A DNA stretch of 64,000 bases from Aldrovandia affinis. Lineage: Eukaryota > Chordata > Actinopteri > Notacanthiformes > Halosauridae. The notes beneath the pieces are model-generated. The model saw only the letters and a list, made by a program, of their open reading frames with translations, had not been told where the DNA came from and searched no databases. The position numbers were made by a program, and so were the translations under genes. Location: assembly GCA_029706075.1 (NCBI GenBank), contig JAINUG010000004.1, positions 1,156,547 to 1,220,546 of the forward strand. The letters run 5' to 3'. Positions 695-57,900 of the stretch are shown here, piece after piece. The number at the start of each line of letters is the position of its first letter. The stretch's first letter is position 1.

Positions 695-1067
695 TATGGT
701 GGAACGACCTTCCGCAATCGGTCAGGACCGCGGAATCTTCCGCAAGAGACTCAAAACCCACCTCTTCAGACTCCACTACCACTAAACTCTGTCCATCTAG
801 CTAAATTGTCTTCACCACTGTTTACTTGTTCAACACTATACAAAAAAATAAATAAAAATAATAATAATAATAATAATAATTACACTAACCTTTTCCTTCC
901 CGGTGTTACAGGTATGCTACGCAGATGCCTGCAATGATGTCTATTGCTGTATTACTGCACTGATCTCGTGCGCTAACTATGATTGTCCCTACCATGTATT
1001 AATGCACATCTTGTAAGTCGCTCTGGATAAGAGCGTCTGCTAAATGCTAAATGTAAAATGTAAATGT
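695..1067 (+). mobile_element. 5'-truncated L2-clade LINE, nested insertion
   Basis: The left part (about 695-775) encodes a decayed C-terminal end of a LINE reverse transcriptase; W-N-D-L-P-Q-S-V-R-T is readable, then a frameshift leads into K-T-H-L-F. The right part is the 3' UTR and tail with the stem-loop GCTCT-GGATA-AGAGC (near 1018-1034) and ATGTAAATG-type terminal repeats. It is flanked by AGATC at 690-694 and 1068-1072. The homologous uninterrupted site near 27118 has a single AGATC, so this is a target-site duplication. The 3' UTR also matches the copy at 24455-24736. Confidence 0.82.
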
Positions 1068-17711: not shown

Positions 17712-19571
17712 TCAGATCATTTTCATGTTGAACTTGCGGGGGGCATCCGCTGCACTGCTGCTCATTCCAGCGTCCGACTTACGGGGCACGTACTCAATCT
17801 CGATGTTGTGCTTGGTGTTGCCCTTGCCCCTGCTCCACAGGAAGAGAAGCACCAGGCAGAACAGAACGACTCCCAGGAATGATATGAATCCCATTGTGGT
17901 GGCTATGATCAGTGTCTTAATGTCGAAGGGGAAGGGCACGGTGGCACGGGTCCCATTGGCACCATTCTCGTTGGGCTGGTTGGAGATGAAGGCAAAGGTT
18001 TTGTTGGGCTGGTGTGGCCAGTCGGGGGAGTAGCTGTGGACGTGCAGGTGAGCCAGTGCCGTGTCGTTGCCACCAGCGTTGCTAGCGATGCACACATATG
18101 TACCGTTGTCCTGGATCTGGGCGTACCTCACCTCCAGGGTGCCGTCTGGGAACACCGTCAGGCGACCGATGGTTTTGGCGGTGATGAACTGTTTCCGGGG
18201 AGACAGCCACATGATGACGGGGGCTGGGTCGCCGTCCGCCTGGCACACGAAATGGACGGTGGTCCCCTCGTCCACAAACATCTGCTGGGCCTTGCGGTCT
18301 CGGATCCGGGACTTGCGGCAGGTGAAGTAGTTAGGCTGGAGGATATCCGGGAAGTCCTTGAACTCCTTGCCTTGCACAAACTCCGGGGAGGTGCAGGTGG
18401 GCTGCTGGCGGTTGAAGTTGAGCCTCCAGCGCCGGCGGAAGACCCATAGCAGGCGGCAGTCACAGGCCAGTGGGTTGTCGTACAGGGCCAGCGTCTCCAG
18501 GTTGCCCACGGAGTGGAAGGCCGACTCCTCCAGAGTGCTGAGAGAGTTACCAGACACATTGAGGATCTTCAGGTAGTTGAGGCCACGGAAGGAGTAGGGT
18601 TCGATAGTGAACAGTCTCCCCCCAACTAAGTGGAACTCCTGCAGCCTCAGCAGGTCATGGAGCTTGTTTCCTTCGATGGTGTGGATGGGGTTGAAGGACA
18701 GGTTCAGGAAACGCAGGTAAACTAGGTGCCGGAGGGCTATGTAGGGGATGCTGGTCAGGTTGCCGTTGGTGATGGTCAAGGATGTGAGGTTGAGGCCGTA
18801 GAGGCAGTTGGAGGTCATGGTGTCCAGGTAGGGCCAGTCAGAAATCTCCAGCACCTTGAGCCGGTACAGCAGCTTGAAGGAGTAGTCCCTGATGACATTG
18901 ATGTTGAGGTGGCGCAGCCTGAGAGAGATCAGGCTGTGGAGGTGGGTGAAGGCCTCCGTGGGCACAGAGGTCAGGTTGCACTTCTCCAGCGTGAGCTGCT
19001 CCAGGCTGCTGAGGCCATGGAAGGCCCGGTGGGAGATGAACACCAGATCGTTGTCCCCAACCTCCAGGGCCCTCAGGTTGTACAGGTCCTGGAACATGTA
19101 GTCTAGCAGAATGACGATCTTGTTCTCGCTGATGTCCAGCTGGGTCAGGTTACTGAGTCCCGTGAACACACCCAGCTGGATGAGCTTCAGCTTGTTGCTA
19201 CGCAGCCCCAACGTCCGCAATCCATAGAGGTTGTTGAAGGCACCTGGTTCGATGGCCGAGATGGTGTTCTCGTTCAGCTCCAGGTCCTCCAGGTGTGGGT
19301 AGTTGACGAACTCATCTGGGTTGATGGTTTTGATGCGGTTCTTGCTGAGGTCCAGGAGGCGAGTCTCACTGGGGATACCTTCGGGGACGAGCAGCAGCTT
19401 CTTGCGGTGGCACACCACCGAGCGCTCCTGGGCATTGCACTCGCAGCGGGACGGGCAGCCCGTGGCTGACCCCGACAACACGGTGCCCAGCATCAATATC
19501 AGGATGGGCTGCCAGCAAGCCACCAGGTAGCTGTGCCCGCTTGCCTCCCCTGCCACCATCCTACCTGTTAC
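17712..19571 (-). CDS. LINGO1, main coding exon
   Basis: LINGO1 is a neuronal cell-surface protein, known in mammals as a Nogo-receptor/p75 co-receptor that restrains axon growth and oligodendrocyte maturation. Numbered on the spliced protein (621 residues; human about 620): signal peptide about 1-40 (hydrophobic I-L-I-L-M-L-G); LRRNT cysteines 41, 45, 47, 56; about 11-12 leucine-rich repeats 68-368; LRRCT with C-D-C-R-L-L-W-V-F and cysteines 372, 374, 395, 420; one I-set Ig domain with cysteine pair 445/496; transmembrane segment about 555-581; short cytoplasmic tail with E-Y-V-P-R-K-S-D and terminal F-N-M-K-M-I. About ten N-glycosylation sequons are visible. The tail motif separates LINGO1 from LINGO2-4. 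The exon starts after a pyrimidine-rich acceptor ending CTCCTCAG; V-T-G-R precedes the first ATG at 19559. Translation from that ATG gives 615 residues, like the shorter human isoform. The frame is intact. Confidence 0.97.
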
Positions 19572-21007
19572 CTGAGGAGACACAAGAGGGAGGAGAACTT
19601 ACAATTACTAAAGAACAAAAAAGAGCCTTTTCAGCAGTCAGCGAAACTTCCTGAATGGCCGGAGCTATATCATGTGCTTTCATCTCTGCCCTATTAGAAG
19701 CAATCTCAGCGTTTTGCTACAGAGAGCAAAAGCTTACGATCCACACGAGGAAGTGGCTGACAGCATATGGAGGCTCCACCCATTATGGGGTTCTTGAAGG
19801 CTCGCTCATTCCATCACTCATTTTAAAGACAAGCTACACGGGCCCCATTTGCTTAGAGCTCATGAGCTCTTTGTTCATCTGTCACTCCCTCATAATTAAA
19901 ATGACTACAGCCACCCGGACAAAATCTAGAGTAGCTTCATCATGCGCTGCTGTGCTTTATCTCCTTATACGTTTGCAGGTTTGCGCGCTTGCGGCTCTGC
20001 GCAGGGACTGTAATTGAACACATCTCATGCTTCCAACCACAGATTCAGGAATAAGAAATAACGAGCCGCCATCTGGTTCACTTTCCCACCGCATGCAATT
20101 AATTTCCCCTGTTTGGATGACTGACACATCGGTTCAGTCACAGGCTTGCGGAGTGCCTAATGCAAATTAAACAGCTGAACACGAGTGCATTGATAATGGA
20201 TCCATATTATTTTCTTCCACAATAGAGGGCGAAAGTCTTTGTGCCATGTAGGGCCTGTTGTCAGGATTTAAAATGGATATGAATGTAGACAATTGCCTAT
20301 AAGACTATGCAGCGCAGGGTTGTTTGGAATGCGTTTTCCCCTCTGCAATATTCATCCCGGTGAGGCCGAAGGAAGCAGAGGCACTAGGCATAAGGTGTAC
20401 ACATGAATAATGGAGAGGGACTGACATATTTGGATTCTACAACACTCACTCAGAGGCATTTGATATGCATGGGTGTTGCGATGCAATGGTGAGGCAGCAG
20501 CAGTCACATGAAGACAAGGTTTCCTCCATTCTCCACACTCCAGGCCCCATATTCATCTTCACAAGTGTTCAGTTGAGTTTTCCACAAACAACTGCATTCA
20601 GACAACAGAGCAAATTCTAACCCACGCGAGCGCCTGCCGAGCGCCTGCCATATTGACCGTCTCCTCAAACCCATTTCTTGACTAAACCTGAGAAAGGTAA
20701 ACAGCTTTTGCCTTGTGCACGCTAGGCTGGAGTTTCAACGTGCCATGAAAGGAAAAGCCAAACCCTGCCGGCCATAAGGAGGCAGGAAGGCCTGACTGGG
20801 GCGAGGAAGTTAACCAGCTGAAAACAAAGGCCTGCAGCCAAATGAATAATACGGCTCTCTCGCACACGAGGCTACACGAGGAAAAGTGCTTAGAACAGGC
20901 CTGCTTATACAGGTTACTACTTTATAATGAAGGAATAGGGAATGGATACCCGCACACCCTAGCTCTGTTCTTTTACTCATGACTGTTACTTCAACGATAC
21001 ACACGCT

Positions 21008-21140
21008 GTATCGAAAAGCAACACACAATATCACATACACACACACACTATACTGCACAACAACAAACACTATGCCACACAACAACAGACAATACCACAT
21101 AGAAACACACACTATACCACAACAACACACACTATACCAC
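21008..21140. repeat. CA/ACAACA low-complexity tract
   Basis: Irregular units such as ACACTATACCAC and ACAACAACA. No coding significance. Confidence 0.75.
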
Positions 21141-21199
21141 AGAACTAATCTTCATTCCTGCTCTAAACTCTCCCCACCTTGATTTCTCCATTTCCCTAG

Positions 21200-21324
21200 G
21201 TGACACCTTGGTGACACCATCACCCTGCGCAACGAATCTCGGTGTGGTGATGGACAACAGGCTGTCCCTATCAAAGAACATTGCAGCGGTAAGCCGGGCA
21301 TGCAGATTCTTCCTGTATAACATT
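21200..21324 (+). pseudogene. L2-clade LINE reverse transcriptase fragment
   Basis: A 42-codon stretch reads through A-T-N-L-G-V-V-M-D and S-R-A-C-R-F-F-L-Y-N-I. This matches the conserved region after the catalytic palm in L2/CR1-type reverse transcriptases (N-L-G-V...D...L-S, then R-I-R). The rest of the element is absent. It lies antisense to lingo1, inside its intron. Confidence 0.75.
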
Positions 21325-23422
21325 CAGTTCTAACAAGGGGTATAGAACCGTACATCTCAGGTTTCATCTCAAGAAAATTCATAAGCACGGTTTGAAGCAT
21401 GCCTGACCCAATGATAACACAAATACGGTGTGCACATTTTACCCCCAAAAAGATAACAATCTTGCAAAGGCTTAGCAGCCCATGCGCTAACCTACACAGA
21501 TTCCACATTATCATGCAGGCCGTGGTGGCACGTAATTCAAGATCAATCAGCTGGTGCTGCTTTCTTAATATTAAATGATGGCGTTTCAAAAGAGGCCAGG
21601 TGCTGCTGGAATGAGCCACATTTTTCAAAAAGTAATCAAATTCCTGCTGTGTCAGGCACACGGATGCCGGCAACATCTGCGGTGTGTGTGGGCTTTACAC
21701 AATCTTTCTCGCTCACCCACTGCCACTGCACTCCACTAGACTGTGTGGGTATGGGGTGGTAGTTGGGGGGTTGGTTGAGTGTCAGCAATGGGGAGCAATC
21801 AAGGACAAACTGCCAAATCTTTATGAATGTATGTGCCACTGTTAACATTCACACCCCCCCACCACTAATATCTGAGCTGCAGTGAAAGAGGGAGTTGCTT
21901 CAGAAAGAGACCAGGATACAACCAACAAACAACATGACATGTAGGCTATAATGCTATTTGTGGTGCCATTTCCCATCCATGAGTTCTGTTTCTGACGACT
22001 GATTTTGCCATTACAAATGCCAGATTTGTGAAAAGATGTGTTTTTTTGTATTGTATTTTTGTTTTGTTTTGTGCAGAAGTCACTCTTGTAAGGCACTTTG
22101 TATGAAAGCATCCACCAAATAACAAAATAGTAAAAATGTTAAAATTGAAGTACCCATAGGAGTGATACACAAGACCATGACCTGCCCACTCCCTGCCATT
22201 AACATGTAATTTCACTTTCATTCATGTTCCCACTTTCGATTGAAGGACATCCTTTCAATACTCCTGACCTTGTATTCTTTTCTGTATTCTAAACAAAAAT
22301 GTTCAGTTTCAAATTAAGAGGCATGCGGAAACACTCAAACTCGCAATTGTATGTGCACTTGTAAGATAATGTTGGTATGAGTACTCGCGTATGGGAGTGG
22401 ATTTGAAGTGCAACCTAGGCTACAACCCAATATAACAAATATGTATGCAGTACTACTACCAAGAACAAACCGGCTGGAGGATATTTACCTGTCATTTAAA
22501 AGTACAAAGAGGTTTGTCTCCGGTTCATTTCTTTTGTTCTTATCCGGTGATGATATTTGAAAGAAAAAAAAAAGACGTTCTGAATCCCTCACTCATGTCA
22601 CAGCTGCATCTCCTAACTCTGCATCTCCTAGTTAGCAAGCGGATAGCGGTGGCAATGCCAGCTAGCTGTGCACGGTAGGCTAAGACGAATGCAAAGTTTG
22701 ACTGTGACTGAAGGAAAACTACTGGCAGGGATTGGTGGAATACACCAGCAATTATGCTGAAAAGTACATGACTATAAATATACTCTGTATATCAGCCACC
22801 AGCTAGCTGTCTAGCATGGTATCCAAGGTGAGAAATGAATGAAAATAACTTTAATTTGAACACATTCTTTTTATGGTTCAGCTAATGGTGTTTTATTATT
22901 AGATACCTGCATGCTGCCTTCCCTGCTGCTCAGGCTTATATTTGGACGCCTAAATGTATCCAATCTTCCCATAATGAACAGGCTGGCTAAGTAATCAAAG
23001 CAAGCCCATGCAAATGATCCCTTTGGAACTTGAAATGGACAAATAGCAAATATGTTACACAGTAAGTCACTGTGAACTACGTTCACCATTTTGAAATGGC
23101 AAAATCAGCCAGCTTGTGTTAAAATATCATCTGTTTGTGATGGGGGAACACAGCAGCAACTGAGGGGTAAACAAATTGAAACTCAGCGCAGGTTGGGGAA
23201 CCCTTATGTCTGGCGTTGATAGCCTCCCGAGATTTAATCAGGCAGCAGGCGAAGAGGGAACTCACATGATTACAACGGCTGTGGGACTTACTGATTCACA
23301 ACTCAGCTTTCCATCTATGCTTCATCTTACATCTTAACTTAGAAAAGAGAGTTTGATGAAATGCTAGTAGTGTATGGCAACACAAACCCGACTATATGAC
23401 TATATATATATATATATATATA

Positions 23423-24215
23423 CAGGTAACTGCTAAAAGAAAGGAATACATACAGGTAACTTAAAGTGTCGTAATAGGGATGAAGAGCCTAGATTGCCTA
23501 CTCTGATGAAGAGTGCATTATGCCAGTGTGCGGATATTTCTGTTTTTGATTCGTGACTTTTGGCTCTGTCCGGCACCTGCAAGTTTTTCTGCTTTAACCG
23601 CCAGAACAGCTTCACTGGCCCTTGGTAGATTCTACAAATGTATGGAACTATATTGGAGGGATGCAACATCATTCTTCCATGAGAAATTCCATTATTTTGG
23701 TGATTTGTTGATGGTGGTGGAAAATGCTGTATTAGGCACACTCGAGAATCTCCCCTAAATGTTCAATTGGGTTGAGATCTGGTGACTCCAACAGCCATGG
23801 CATATGGTTTACATCGTCATCATGCTCATCAAACCACTCAGTGACCACTCATGCCCTGTGGATGGGGGCATTGTCATCCCCACCGGGGCCACATATACTG
23901 AAAAATGTATGCATTCACTACTGTAAGTCGCTTTGGATAAAAGCGTCTGCTAAATGGCATATATTATATTATTATACATGTTATTATTATATTATCTTGA
24001 AAGAAACCACTCCCATCAGGAGATAAATTCTTCACCATAGGATGCTTCACTCTTCATGTGATCACTCATGCTCACATGGCTTTGTATTTATTGGCATTTA
24101 CCTTGCCCTCTAAGGGGTTGAGTGGCTCTAAATCATGCCAGGAAAATGCACCCCACACCACAACACATGTGCTTAACTTATAATAAAGTGTTTCCTATAT
24201 TTTGGCAGCTACCTG
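23423..24215 (-). mobile_element. Tc1-like transposon remnant, both ends present
   Basis: Same family as 2261-2761. Left end CAGGTAACTGC and right end GGCAGCTACCTG form matching inverted repeats. The C-terminal transposase region is recognisable on the minus strand from homology but has lost its frame. It sits in an AT run at 23401-23422, consistent with TA targeting. It is interrupted at 23880-23996. Internal deletion and decay make it inactive. Confidence 0.85.
23880..23996 (+). mobile_element. Small L2-tailed repeat inside Tc1-like element
   Basis: Interrupts the sequence GTCATCC/TGAAAG that is continuous in the copy at 2261-2761. Carries GTAAGTCGCTTTGGATAAAA, i.e. the stem-loop GCTTT-GGATA-AAAGC, then CTGCTAAATG and AT-rich (TTA)n. 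The body upstream of the hairpin is only about 45 bases. Confidence 0.7.
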
Positions 24216-24227
24216 TGTGTATATGGT

Positions 24228-24330
24228 AAGGCTTTGCCTTTTGCCAGACCACCATTGTAAATAAGAATTTGTTCTTAATGGCTTGCCTGGTTAAATAAAG
24301 GTTAAATAAAAAATAAAAAAAAAAAAAAAT
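24228..24330 (+). repeat. Interspersed 3' tail ending TTAAATAAAGGTTAAATAAA
   Basis: AATAAGAATTTGTTCTTAA, then GCTTGCCTGGTTAAATAAAG and A-rich tail. This is a widespread teleost repeat end. A second copy in opposite orientation is at 38136-38194. Confidence 0.65.
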
Positions 24331-24454
24331 ATAAATGTAAAAATTTTAAAAAATAAAAAATAATATATATATATATATATATAAATATGGATGGTTCATT
24401 GATACAAATATTACCATATCCTGTCAACTATGGAATAGCACAGGATCTGAATTC

Positions 24455-24736
24455 TGTACATCTAGCCAGTTGTCATCACCACTGCCGACTTGCTCAACAC
24501 TCCTTGTATATGTATCCCTGCCTTCTCATTTAATAAAATAAAAAATGAAAAATGACTAACCTTTTCCTTCCCTGTGTTACAGGTATGGTATGCAGCTGCC
24601 TACAACAATGTCTATCGCTGTATTACTGCACTGATCTCTTGCGCTAACTATGATTGTTCCTACCATGTATTAATGCACATCTTGTAAGTCGCTCTGGATA
24701 AGAGCGTCTGCTAAATGCTTAAAATGCAAATGTAAA
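24455..24736 (+). mobile_element. 5'-truncated L2-clade LINE 3' UTR and tail
   Basis: Collinear with 795-1067: CATCTAGC, then CTTTTCCTTCCCTGTGTTAC, TGCACATCTTG, stem-loop GCTCT-GGATA-AGAGC and CTGCTAAATGC with a terminal ATGCAAATGTAAAT. It contains no coding sequence. Confidence 0.8.
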
Positions 24737-25053
24737 TCTATCCAACACAATTCCATTAAACGAGGGTTGAGCTTCCAGGGGGGCTATGGGCCCCTCCGTC
24801 GGTTAAATGAAAAATACATGAAAAGGACGAGGTTAGGTCTGAATACAGCATTAATGTTTAAAGACCTGATGGCACAGGGAATACGCCTCATGGTGCCATT
24901 TTTGATTAATTTTTTTATTATTCCACTTTCAGAGCTGCAGGTGTCTGACTGATCCAAACGTCTTTCACGCAGAGGTTTGGAAAAAGAAGAAGGAAAAATT
25001 AATGTGCCAACAAAACAGAAAAGTTGTGCGTCTCTGCCGTGTACATTGCTTAC

Positions 25054-25059
25054 CTGCAT
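25054..25059 (-). CDS. lingo1 start-codon segment (Met-Gln)
   Basis: On the minus strand the sequence reads CTGTATGCAG|GTAAGC, a start codon and one Gln codon followed at once by a consensus splice donor. Joined in phase 0 to the main exon it gives M-Q-V-T-G-R-M, matching mammalian LINGO1 M-Q-V-S-K-R-M; this supports the call beyond the splice motif. The exon's 5' edge is uncertain. A close acceptor (GGTTTCTTAG) would start it at about 25097. A more distal one (TTTCACTGCAG near 25265) would include an upstream in-frame GCCACCATGG at about 25180 and lengthen the N-terminus by about 40 residues. Confidence 0.72.
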
Positions 25060-26329
25060 ACAGAGTTCAGCGATTACAATCGGGTGCTGATTCCTAAGAA
25101 ACCGGGACACCAGCTGCTTACTTAAAAAGACCAGCTCCACAACCTGAATGATAATGATTTTTTTTTCGGTCTCCATGGTGGCACGCAACTCTGAACAATC
25201 AACCATTCTGGTCATGGAGACCAGTTTGCCCTGCAATAACCTGGTAATGCCCTGAGCTGCAGTGAAACAGCTCACTCACACAAGCTGGGATGGGACCACC
25301 AGTTAATATTCATGTAGAACTGTAACCAGTTTTCACATACTGGATTTAGAATTGTAGTCTCAATTTTGTGCCCAGAATTTATTCTAGAAAATAAAAAAGT
25401 GTATATTTATTTTAATACTCTATTTTTTTAAAGTCTGTCTATTGACAAGCACTATAAACAAAAATGACAGACGGCATCGGCAGTTGTGGTAGCAAACGGC
25501 AGTTGTGGTACCAAATGAATGTTGGAATACTAGAAATGTAACTAGCGTGCCTATGGAGATGGCGATAGTCATTGAAAATCCTGCTTCATAGCAAAAACGA
25601 CCCAAGTGATTGATTTAAAATATGTTTATTTTCATAATCTTTACAGATTTATCTAGTCAACTAATATAGACATTGGGGTGATGCCTTGAAATCCTGCCCC
25701 AAAGTCTTCATTCACAATTTCTGTTCACTTTTAAGTAAAAGATCCACCAGCTTCACTCAGCTTGTCCCCACGTCTTATAGTTCAAAAAAACGCCAATTCA
25801 TACCGTAAAATTAAAAACCCACTGGAGCAAATTAAGTTAAAAATATGCAGGACTGATGTTTTTTGGTGCGTGGCGGTTGAATGGAATTCTATGAGATTAG
25901 GCTGAGAGATACGTTATAATTAAACTTGCTGGAAGGCCCATCCCAAGGTATTTCGATGCATAGTGAAGTTACTCCATTCACTTGCCTCCCCGAGGAACCA
26001 CTGTCAATGTGTCATAGCTGTACAAGCCTCTCGCCTGGTGCTCAGCAGTTCAACCTCTCCTTATTAACCTGTCTTTCAGAGGGGCATGCCAGGAAACACA
26101 GAGACATGGACCCTTGACTGCATATCAAAATGTCTGCAGGCCCGTGTCCCGCATATCTTCCAGCTCCAAACCCTATTGTATAGACTTAATACATGGCTCT
26201 GTCACCAGACTCGGGCAGTGCTCGCATACATGACAAACATCGTAAATATACCCGCTGTACGTATGCCAGATTCTGTATTCATAAACAACATCATCATATC
26301 TCTGTCATTCGCCGTAGCTGTGTTTTAGT
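25060..26329. other. 5' UTR/upstream lingo1 sequence
   Basis: Upstream of the start segment on the minus strand. The first 200 bases are probably partly exonic. The remainder is unique AT-rich sequence without another gene. A local direct repeat, GGCAGTTGTGGTA, occurs twice near 25479-25510. Confidence 0.4.
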
Positions 26330-34751: not shown

Positions 34752-36038
34752 ACCCATGCTACCTCCGGTGGGACAAAGCCCATTTATCCCACTGCAGGAC
34801 AAAGCCAATTGGTCCTGGTCATGGAGTCACAATAGAAGGTTCTAGAGGCATAAAGCTGAGATGTCATAAAATTGATCCATAAGGAACAGTTAAGATGAAG
34901 TGTGCCTTGCTTTTTTTCTCACCGACCCACGCTTGTTGTTCAGTGGTCCAGAAACCTTCTGCTTGGTATGTATCTGATGGAGTCGCGAACTTGCAGGAGC
35001 CACCTAATACGGAGTGAGAAGGACCACTGATTCATCTCTGGACGAGATGCCTCGGCTTAACCAATGAGCCGCCAGGGAAGAGTTATGACACCGGGGGCGC
35101 CGTAAAGTGCCAAGGCCTCGTGCCTGGCTGCCGTGGGCAACCGCGGTTGCAGTGCGCTTTCCTCTGCTGTTTTACCCGCCACTGGGCCGGGTCCGTTATT
35201 ACACCGGGGTGTCACGAGTACTGGCTTTATGGATTTTTCATTTGCCGGCTGAATTGCGGCAGGAAGGTGACCTGCGTGTCATTGTGGGCAAGATGCGGAT
35301 CAGCAGAGGCGGGCTGGCTTAGGCCGGCTTGATATGACCAGCCTTAAATCCCAGCTAACGTCGGACAGATGGGCCACAAAGATGTAATCCCGGAGAAGGA
35401 GCCGCCTGCAGAAAACTAGGGGGGCGGCACCCCTGGCGGAGAGCAGCTGTTCCAGCAAGCGTCACCCACGGCTCTGCGTAGCGTCCAACTGAACCTCACC
35501 TTCATCCCCGGCCCTACACCTGCCACGCCCCCCGACCCTACACCTACCACACCACTGCTCGTCTCACCTAGGAGCTGTGGCTCCCAACATTCCACACAGC
35601 CCTTTCATACAAAATACAATATAACAATCCTGTATCACATTGTCCAACATAATCGAATGTACAGCACGTATAATCTTTTTTCATAGATATAATCTTTTCA
35701 TCCTCAAAATATTTCTGCCTTACCACATGTTACAGCTGTATTGATACCAATATAATCTAATATACATGTAATCTCATAGTTGCCATAACAATATGAGTGT
35801 AATCAAATATTAATGGAATGTAATAGATAATGTAATATTACAGGAATTAATATCCTTTCCAGGGAGTTTGTGGCCATGAAAACCGAATTCCCCAGTGCAG
35901 CCGCTGCTCTGTGTGAGCATCTGCTCTACGTCTGGTAGCAAACAGACAGAAGATGTACCTGTAACATTCTGCCATTGTTTTCCATCTGTTCAACATGTCA
36001 TGCAGGACGCTCTGAAAACAAGAAAGTTTGCCTGAACA
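34752..36038. other. Intergenic, partly GC-rich
   Basis: 35060-35520 is distinctly GC- and CpG-richer than its surroundings, without a recognisable gene. It could be a decayed repeat or a regulatory block. The rest is AT-rich. Confidence 0.35.
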
Positions 36039-40473: not shown

Positions 40474-40563
40474 TGTTATTGGATCTCTAGCTCATACATA
40501 GATTAATAACCTAAACGAGGAAGGGAGAGGAAGCCCAAATAAACCAGCAAGAGGGCGGTAATG

Positions 40564-40688
40564 GGCCAATGGGACTGCGTTCTCTGTGTTAACAGGCCAA
40601 TGGGAGTGCGTTCCCTGTGTTAACGGGCCAATGGGAGTGCGTTCTCTGTGTTAACAGGCCAATGGGAGTGCGTTCTCTGCCTCTCAGC
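40564..40688. repeat. 31-bp minisatellite, 4 copies, each with a CCAAT box
   Basis: Units GGCCAATGGGAGTGCGTTCT followed by CTGTGTTAACA repeat at a 31-bp step from 40564. The last unit is truncated. Each holds GGCCAATGGG, a strong NF-Y-type CCAAT motif in the same orientation. Confidence 0.88.
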
Positions 40689-41169
40689 AGCGTGCGACCA
40701 TTAACGGCCGGCTCCTCCGTGAGTCTCGCGCTGCGACAAATCAGTAGGTGGGGAGCGCTCGCTTGTGCGGCCGTTACGATATTGATTTAATCACGGCTGG
40801 CATTTGAACTCGGTTTCCAGCCCGCGGCCCAGAGGAAGCGCCATTTAAAGGAATTGAAGTGTAATTAGTGCCCGCTGGAAGGGAAGTGACCCGTCATAAA
40901 GACCAGGCCCTGGCCAGGCCCCCGTTAAGGCTCCTGTCAGAACAACAGCCTTCGCACGAACGGTGGCTGCGAAGCACGGCTCGGGGAACGGGGGCAAGTG
41001 CTGCCGGAGCATTTTAAAAACTCAGAGCCCGGCTGCTGATCTCACGAGGCTCCAGAGTGCTGTGGCTCAGGGGCGCCTCTGAGCCCCGCGGGTCTGGCTA
41101 TATTGCACAGCTTCAAGCACTGCCTTTGGTTGCCCCTGGGTCCTCTGAAAACCCATCCCGCCTTTTCAC
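40689..41169. promoter_or_regulatory. GC-rich block next to CCAAT array, candidate regulatory region
   Basis: CpG-containing and GC-rich, unlike the AT-rich flanks, with homeodomain-type TTGATTTAATCAC and GTGTAATTAGTG motifs. No TATA box or start site can be assigned. The role is inferred only from composition and motifs. Confidence 0.3.
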
Positions 41170-44098: not shown

Positions 44099-45324
44099 AG
44101 TAGAATCTCTGAGATATGGACTGACTGGTCAGCTGAATGTGGCATGTGTGGTAATATACATTGTATATTAAAACTTGTTTATTAATGGTATGAACTACCT
44201 TTCATTGATGCACTTGTGATGCTCTGCAACCAAAAGGTCCTTCCTCTCCCATGCGTGTCTCTCCAATCTCTGCAATCGCTCAAGGCACTGCCGCGTGACA
44301 CGCTGTCCAATTATGTACTCAATTTTATTGTAGCTAAAGTTAAATAGTTCACATAACAGAAACCATGGCGCATACATACATACATATATTTATGTAAAAA
44401 ACATGTATCTTACACAATGTGATGGTTGCAGAGATGGTCTCTCTCTCATTTATGTACATTGAAACACTCATTACAAGTGCAAAGCTCAAATGCTTTGAAC
44501 TGCTTAGTTGAATACAGATTGCATTTCCAATAGTCCTTTATTGAATGATTTTCCTCAGAGTGAGGTAAAACACAGAACATCCACAAAGCAGTGTTGTGTG
44601 ATGGCAGATTTCTCGCTTGTCTGCCCTATCTGTTCATATGTACCCATTAATAACTAACATAAAAAAACGAGCACAACATGCCAGCGTTTGATTTAAGAGC
44701 TGGTCTGAGTATGAAAATGTAAATGTACCAGACACGAAACTCGCACAGTACCTAATGTTTTTAATGACATCCCCCTAATTGCGCTGCCCAACCCAATTTG
44801 ATGCAAATGCCTTTATTGATGACCACAAAACTATTAAACTGTGTGGAGGTGAGAAATGCTCTGTTTGCAACGGACCAAACACTAGCGGTGACACTACCAC
44901 CCAGGTGTGTTTTCATTACCATCCACACCAAACTAAAGCCCTCTATCTCACTCTTTCTCTCCCTCTCTCACTCTATATCTCTCTCTTTTTCTACTCTTTC
45001 TCTCCCTCTCTTTCATTCTTCTCACTCCCTCTCTCCCTCCCTCTCTACCCCCCTCTCTATCTCTGTGCACTGGGTTATCTCACTAGCCTAGGCTAGTCAG
45101 TTCTTCTTCACTTTTTAATCATGGCTGCCAGTGGGGTGGGGTGACTTCTAGCACTGACAAAGGGAATCCATCTCGCAAATCTGATATGATCAGTTGATAA
45201 AGTAACCCACATCCGAGACTCTCTCAGCACTGACAATCCATCACTGACACACGCAACCATGAAACCGCACACGGAAACAAGCCCTGCTACAGAGCAGCTG
45301 TGAACGCATCGTACTGTGGGAGGA
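44099..45324. other. Intergenic, pyrimidine-rich tract
   Basis: 44939-45065 is almost pure CT on the plus strand (CTCTCTCC/TTTCTCT units). No gene; Leu/Ser-rich frames there are artefacts. Confidence 0.5.
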
Positions 45325-45685
45325 GCGTCAGTAACACAGTGTGTTGTGTGAGTTAAGAACGGCGTCAGTAACACAGTGTGATGTTTGAGTTAAGAGGAGC
45401 ATCAGTATCACAGTGTGATGTTTGAGTTAAGAGGAGTGTCAGTAACACAGTGTGATGTTTGAGTTAAGAGCGGCGTCAGTAACACAGTGTGATGTTTGAG
45501 TTAAGAGCAGCGTCAGTAACACAGTGTGATGTTTGAGTTAAGAGGAGTGTCAGTAACACAGTGTGACGTTTGAGTTAAGAGCGGCGTCAGTAACACAGTG
45601 TGACGTTTGAGTTAAGAGCAGCGTCAGTAACACAGTGTGATGTTTGAGTGAAGAGGAGCAACAATAACGCGGTGCGATGTTTGAC
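45325..45685. repeat. 37-bp minisatellite, about 10 copies
   Basis: Units GCGTCAGTAACACAGTGTGA followed by TGTTTGAGTTAAGAGGA. Copies differ at a few positions: GA/CG/CA at the unit end, and TGATG versus TGACG mid-unit in two adjacent copies. The final unit is diverged. Confidence 0.95.
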
Positions 45686-52404: not shown

Positions 52405-52614
52405 CACATTTACATTTTAGGCATTTAGCAGACGCTCTTATCCAAAGTGACTTACACAGTTTTACATTTCTTTCTATACAGCTGGATATTTTTTACTGAA
52501 GCAATTTAGGTTAAGTACCTTGCTCAAAGGTACAACAGCAGTGTCCCACCTGGGAATTGAACATGCAATCTCTGAGTTACAAGCCCAGCTCCCTAACCAT
52601 TACACTACACTGCC
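52405..52614 (-). mobile_element. tRNA-derived SINE with L2-type tail, near full length
   Basis: Minus-strand A box GTGTAGTGTAATGGTTAGGG, B-box region GTTCAATTCCC, CAAGGTACTTAACC, ATCCAGCTGTATAG, then stem ACTTT-GGATA-AGAGC and CTGCTAAATGCC. Confidence 0.9.
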
Positions 52615-55999: not shown

Positions 56000-57900
56000 A
56001 TGGCATCCAGGGAAACGGAACTTGCACGTGATGAAGAAACAAAAAAAACTACAAATCTGATATGCATACTAATGCCATAATCAGACCGGGGTGGGGTTGG
56101 TGCGCGGGCATGTCCGGAGTTAAAATAAAATGAAATATCAACAAAATAATATAACATCGTATATATAAAATAGTTCCCGTTCTTGGAACGGGGAAAATCT
56201 GACACGTTTCCGAACATTCTTCTCAAGGTTGAAAACAGGCTATTAGGAAACTGGCAATGACCGGGACGCACAGACGCTGATCAAAGTCCGCCAAAGCCTA
56301 CAGTCTGCAATTGCTATATTCCGTGTGCAGAGCCCGTCGGAGTAGCCTATTTCCAATGCACCACCAGGCTTGCCTTCCGAAAAAGTAAAGGAGAATGAAA
56401 AAACAACTCGTATGCTTTTCTAATGCAAAGGAACGGATTGTTCCTCGTCTCGAACGTTTGCTTATTGTCACAAGTCTAACAACACTTATCGATGCTCCAT
56501 ACCTCTCACCGCCGCCCTCCCATCACGCACACAAAGGGTAATATTGTACCACTGTACGAAGACTACCTGTCCTAAATTTCCGTATTTTCTTTGGTTACAT
56601 TTCCATAATTTGTAGGGGGGTAAAACAGTAGTAATTTAATACTGTCATTTTTCCATGCACTTAAATTGTCCTTATTGCAGTTTAGAAAGAGTAAAGTACA
56701 ATATTATTGTAGTAGTAAATAATAAAACATGTATGATATTCAGAGTTCTGAAATAGACAGGCAATATTACCGTTTCGGTATTTTACCTGAAGAGGACGCG
56801 CGGAGCCACGCAAATGCACAACATTTCCTCCTTACGCGTGCTGTCTGTGATTCCTTCAGCGTTCAATCTACTGCATACGGATTCCTGATCCATTGCAGTG
56901 CATTGAGTTTTATGTCCTTTTCAACCGTATCAACATTAAAAACAACACCATATTCACTCCCGAGAGAAAAGTCCATGGCTACGAAACCCCAAATCTATAA
57001 CCCAATAGCATATCCTTGAAAATGAGAACAAATTATCTTTGAAATTCAACGCACTCGACTGGCTATCGGAAAAAACATGTTCATGAGAATTCTGATCCAT
57101 CCCCGGTCTACCCCAACCTTTTATATTACCCGTGCAGTATAGACAACCTGTCTATTTTATTCATGTTCGTCCCGTCGTAACTAGTTTGTTACGGAAACGT
57201 CTAGTTATCCTCATCGCCCGTTTGAAATCGCTCCTGATACTTTTACTGCTGCGGTGCCCGCCGTGAGGAAGCTTTGAGCTCTGTTACTCACCTAAAGCGA
57301 CTAGCGAGCATCCTCACGCAACTCGCCCATCGGCAACTCCCAAACGCGAAGAGACAAAAACGGAGAGATCCACTATCTCGGGTCCATCGCTACAAAGGAC
57401 TGATTTCAGAAACAGGTATTTTCCCCGTCGAATTCCGACGCCCTCAATGTCTTAACGCGAACAGATCGATACTCCAGTTAGTCTGTCCCGTCGTTGTATT
57501 ATGATAACGCACCGGTTCTTGCTCCGAAGGTATCCTACGCGAATCGAGTAGATCTTCCCTCCTCGCCCTGTGACTGTCTGCACTCGGCGGTGCGGGAAAC
57601 GATAATAAGAGGAGCACTCCCACACATTCGAACCCCTTGCCCCGCGCAGCGTTCGCCCAGCTCTGTGCGGTCCGAGCTCTCTCAGACGCCACTCGCAAGG
57701 TTACTGCGCGACTGACTGCTGTTTTCAGCAGCGGCACGGAGCAGAGGGAGGGACGAATCCGAGGAAATGGGAAAGGGATGTACCTCACAGTGCCCCTCGA
57801 CACAGTGGAAATACACAGTCTAGATATTTGGGTCTATCAGCTGTGGCGGAAAACCAACAAATAAAATGGATGCAAATACATTTAAGCGAATACATATGTA
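56000..57900. promoter_or_regulatory. CpG-rich block, candidate promoter
   Basis: CpG dinucleotides are frequent, especially 57180-57760 (GCGCAGCGTTCGCCC, CGACTGACTGC, GCGGCACGGAG), against an AT-rich, CpG-poor surround. Candidate donors exist on both strands: CAGAAACAG/GTATTT at 57421 plus, and TTAGGACAG/GTAGTC near 56568 minus. It could be the distal first exon of lingo1 (minus strand, about 32 kb upstream of the start segment) or of an unseen gene. Open frames within it (up to 119 codons) are not recognisable. Confidence 0.4.

Follow-up and report, generated by a model that had tools for sequence, protein, structure and literature searches.

The closest described system is mammalian LINGO1 (LRRN6A/LERN1), which we take to have a long isoform starting MQVSKRM and a short isoform without the first six residues, with an intron presumably lying after codon 2. 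A full-text search for the peptide MQVSKRM found no paper, and no paper on the LINGO1 first exon appeared among the matches listed (titles and abstract beginnings). Based on an analysis of 64,000 nt of Aldrovandia affinis DNA (GCA_029706075.1, JAINUG010000004.1:1,156,547-1,220,546, forward strand; contig C1911 in our labels), referred to here as the window, together with searches of the 1.22-Gb genome, we propose that lingo1 of this fish quite probably has a longer isoform built from a first exon ending in ATGCAG, a phase-0 intron of ~5.5 kb and a main exon (19571-17712) that carries the rest. The features are collected in Table 1.

Table 1. Features of the lingo1 locus and of related loci; positions are those of the window unless a contig label precedes them
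Feature	Position	Strand	Basis or remark
Proposed first coding segment ATGCAG (Met-Gln), followed by phase-0 intron	25054..25059	-	sequence
5' splice site GTAAGC	25048..25053	-	near-consensus; donor-matrix score
Proposed phase-0 intron, 5,482 bases	19572..25053	-	sequence of both splice sites
3' splice site, pyrimidine-rich tract then CAG	19572..19594	-	sequence; alignment to second copy
lingo1 main coding exon	17712..19571	-	VTGRM..., leader, LRRs, Ig I-set, transmembrane segment (by eye), stop
Internal ATG	19557..19559	-	strong context (A at -3, G at +4); starts short 615-aa form
In-frame upstream ATG, perfect Kozak context GCCACCATGG	25174..25176	-	39 codons before ATGCAG
Rival two-codon exon ATGAAG, followed by GTGAGG	35505-35500	-	inside CpG-rich stretch 34901-35700
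LINGO-like genes with acceptor-like AG 12 bases before Met	C424:1710035-1711852, C2467:1403064-1404872, C1794:1003897-1004637		

The protein contains LRR_8 (1.2e-53) and I-set (1.4e-14) Pfam domains and matches the LINGO-1 ectodomains 4oqt (E 5.6e-275, 917 bits) and 2id5 (E 3.4e-274, 914 bits), against 205 bits for the next chain, LRRC4C, among the best 60 of 445 matches. With an LRR array, an Ig I-set domain and the LINGO-1 ectodomain as closest solved relative, the assignment of the gene to LINGO1 is well supported by its sequence. An earlier note had claimed that only ATGCAG is coded before a GTAAGC donor, and this is indeed what the minus strand reads at 25059-25054 (...ctctgt ATGCAG gtaagcaatg..., with the donor starting at 25053). 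Its further claim, that joining to an acceptor at 19572 recreates M-Q-V-T-G-R-M, holds as well: ATGCAG and the main exon joined in phase 0 encode 621 aa without interruption (622 letters if the stop is counted), ending ...KFNMKMI. The features that we presume for the long isoform are thus found in the fish gene, namely ATGCAG ahead of a phase-0 donor and a Val codon in the main exon four codons before the internal Met. Lingo1 of this fish shares with the mammalian protein given above the positions of Met-Gln, Val and Arg-Met, the LRR and Ig domains and, presumably, an intron following codon 2, but has TG where the latter has SK.

The acceptor is the firmer of the two splice sites. On the minus strand the junction reads ...gtgtctcctcag followed by GTAACAGGTAGGATGGTGGC, so that the AG ends at 19572, the exon runs from 19571 and the internal ATG follows at 19559. 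A genome protein search identified a second lingo1 copy (C1800:13704270-13706126), whose protein is 85% identical over the whole query (524/619 residues). The two copies are alike in having an AG followed by the identical 12 bases, GTAACAGGTAGG, ahead of the internal ATG: the exon side of the junction is the same at 12/12 bases, against 19/60 on the intron side, and the nucleotide alignment extends just 3 bases (CAG) past the junction. The first five codons, VTGRM, are identical in both copies, which at the gene's own rate has a chance of ~0.05 and is counted here among the points against the proposed model. Taken at the level of sequence, an acceptor at 19572 is well supported. Some 208 kb from the window gene, C1911:1384263-1384580 reproduces part of the main exon's 5' end with 92% DNA identity across 283 bases. 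It keeps intron bases, has AT in place of the acceptor AG and looks like a decayed genomic duplicate. It was also considered as a retrocopy that might reveal the spliced exon 1 and was rejected, as upstream intron bases (ttgttctttagta, by eye) are kept and exon-1 sequence is not seen.

The same arrangement recurs in the wider family. In three of five further LINGO-like loci (C424, C2467 and C1794) an AG after a pyrimidine-rich tract precedes an in-frame Met by exactly 12 bases, a pattern that was noticed after the fact. These three genes share the spacing with lingo1 and differ in the four codons between; C424 and C2467 have additional in-frame Met codons nearby, any of which may be where the protein begins. 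The loci on C1 and C1943 are without an AG at this distance. The recurrence in three of the five makes the intron position look old, and hints that it predates the LINGO duplications. The putative intron itself includes repeat-like stretches that match other DNA compared (23598-23976, 23994-24216, 24253-24311 and 24447-24740). Two of the four UnaL2 LINE 3' elements recognised by Rfam in the window (1001-1053, 23910-23963 and 24672-24724 on the plus strand, 52415-52468 on the minus strand) fall inside it. Elsewhere in the window lie two tandem arrays, at 45320-45684 (37-base unit, 9.9 copies) and 40564-40679 (31-base unit, 3.7 copies).

How strong is the case for the six-base exon? By a generic donor matrix, not fitted to this genome, two minus-strand 9-mers of the window, the site at 25053 included, reach its score or more. 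Counting both strands, the window has a single ATGCAGGTRAG, against a shuffle mean of 0.09 and at least one match in 9 of 100 shuffles; scaled to length, the motif is expected ~0.004 times on one strand of the 5.5-kb interval separating the two exons and ~0.03 times across the 44 kb that lie upstream of the main exon. Within those 44 kb, 10 short ATG-to-donor candidates exceed the threshold, ATGCAG included. When 24900-25350 (451 bases) was searched against the 1.22-Gb genome, with simple repeats and very common words skipped, the single match was the stretch itself, and a local BLAST comparison of 24850-25600 with L001-L010 yielded nothing beyond one 15-base match (E 0.095). A pattern scan run on viral contigs was negative. 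The sequence ATGCAGGTAAGC was located 137 times genome-wide, compared with 27 times for a reversed control that contains two CpGs and is biased low; nothing was drawn from this count. We regard the ATGCAG exon as likely to be real. Position, phase, donor and the presumed mammalian N-terminus make it probable; the searches for a conserved counterpart described below found none.

Among the other candidates, ATGAAG at 35505-35500 would also supply a two-codon exon and yield MKVTGRM. Its donor (11.12 bits, compared with 11.29 for that of ATGCAG) and its CpG-rich surroundings speak for it, but its second residue would be Lys and not Gln, it lies 16 kb away from the main exon, and the 80 kb compared at the locus of the second copy contain no match to its surroundings. 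We hold this alternative to be extremely improbable.

The locus of the second copy was searched for an ATGCAG exon over increasing distances. Neither of two patterns fitted within 10 kb (L025), a pattern and an ungapped scan fitted nothing within 40 kb, and a pattern and sensitive BLAST fitted nothing within 80 kb, where the gene strand has three ATGCAGGT, none of them followed by GTRAG. Across 110 kb (C1800:13704001-13814000, with one 100-N gap at 13716847) there are four ATGCAGGT on the gene strand, 0 of which continue as GTRAG, and BLAST of 24851-25400 gave no match better than E 0.15. The second copy, alike in its protein and acceptor, thus differs from the window gene in that the 110 kb searched around it yielded no ATGCAG exon. 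The first 80 kb hold seven short ATG-to-donor candidates, so the second copy may use a different first exon; the best of these (MYCLSSRMELK) scores 12.32 bits, above the donor in the window.

The result at the second copy is among the points in favour of a reading in which chance alone placed ATGCAG at 25059, non-coding first exons are joined to the main exon and translation starts at 19559 to give 615 aa. VTGR would then be 5' UTR following an old 5'-UTR intron, as may hold for other LINGO genes; the AG 12 bases before Met in three of the five other loci, where the stretch may be UTR, the strong start context at 19559 and the CpG-rich stretches upstream (such as 34901-35700, 40501-41100 and 57201-57900) also favour it. 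Against this stand the small number of ATGCAG-GTRAG matches expected in 5.5 kb (~0.004), the right phase of ATGCAG and the mammalian N-terminus given in the earlier note, which predicts exactly such an exon. On balance we judge a chance match unlikely. The reading of the earlier note, a tiny coding exon of lingo1, stands in unequal parts: gene identity and acceptor are well supported, and the six-base exon is probable.

Sequence shared with the second copy does occur further upstream. Some 440 bases upstream of ATGCAG, 25498-25854 on the minus strand is 68% identical over 374 columns to C1800:13728662-13729026, which lies upstream of the second copy; it is the sole match to that copy within 19585-25900 at E<=1e-4 that has no match to other DNA compared, and no coding role is seen in it. 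The stretch is possibly a regulatory element or promoter-proximal sequence. It was rejected as a first exon, there being no donor common to both copies in the alignment (by eye).

Where would the first exon begin? Read back from ATGCAG, the frame meets its first stop, a TGA, at 25278 (it is open from 25275) and includes three in-frame ATGs, at 25215, 25206 and 25176. That at 25176 has the context GCCACCATGG, a string present just once in the window, counting both strands. From 25176 to 25054 (-) there is a 41-codon open stretch (METEKKIIIIQVVELVFLSKQLV...) running into ATGCAG. Given the perfect Kozak context at 25176, the 5' end of the exon should fall downstream of that position, barring an extended protein; the normal product would require the exon to start somewhere from 25176 to 25059, or else splicing into it at an acceptor, for example the possible one at the AG at 25094, and an exon beginning above 25176, if true, would be expected to give a product of 660 aa. 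One may therefore envisage that the exon is real and that translation starts at 25176 (or 25206/25215), placing at least 39 residues before the usual signal peptide of Lingo1. The frame open from 25275 to the donor and the unique GCCACCATGG in frame favour such an extension. However, 73-codon open stretches are not very unusual (they start at 1219 of 43781 same-strand positions, 2.8%), the open frame through ATGCAG runs on into the intron for 163 codons overall, the signal peptide would be buried by a 39-residue leader, and the extension would be excluded by use of the possible acceptor at 25094 or by a transcription start below 25176. We consider translation from these upstream codons very unlikely. 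It is likewise highly improbable that fish lingo1 also makes a 660-aa form from 25176, whose 39-residue leader (METEKKIIIIQVVELVFLSKQLV...) would precede the signal peptide and alter targeting or topology.

We thus return to the isoform that begins with ATGCAG. Its first exon would be mostly 5' UTR and end with ATGCAG at 25054; transcription of this exon and the position of its start are inferred. Transcripts starting just upstream of 25059 and spliced from 25054 to 19571 would encode the 621-aa form. The ATG at 25059 has a weak start context (T at -3, C at +4) and the next in-frame ATG, at 19559, a strong one, so leaky scanning is expected, and both 621-aa and 615-aa products would result. 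Other promoters would give the 615-aa form alone. In the solved LINGO-1 structures the chains do not begin until query residue 37, past MQVTGR, which argues that these six residues probably belong to the signal peptide or cleaved leader. They would then probably do no more than lengthen its n-region and leave the mature receptor unchanged. The earlier note mentions neither the upstream in-frame ATGs nor the contrast in start context between 25059 and 19559, nor that the six residues come before the solved ectodomain.

What are the implications for gene models and for the history of the family? RNA-seq-aware annotation pipelines are able to place such tiny exons, so the earlier note's claim that automated gene callers would miss the exon is too strong. 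Its general worry over gene models nevertheless fits a published paper, in which many Ensembl predictions for extracellular-LRR genes, mammalian above all, are described as being without the 5'-most exon coding for the signal peptide (PMC2235866). The probable tiny exon of lingo1 is an ordinary detail of the structure of a known gene; it is also a useful correction to the gene model and an easily checked two-codon coding start on a neuronal receptor. In the scenario that we favour, an old intron lay 12 bases before the Met, and an ATG that in lingo1 stands two codons ahead of the donor would have placed that intron inside the coding sequence. The common intron position 12 bases before Met may thus offer a way to date the gain of the upstream start by lingo1.
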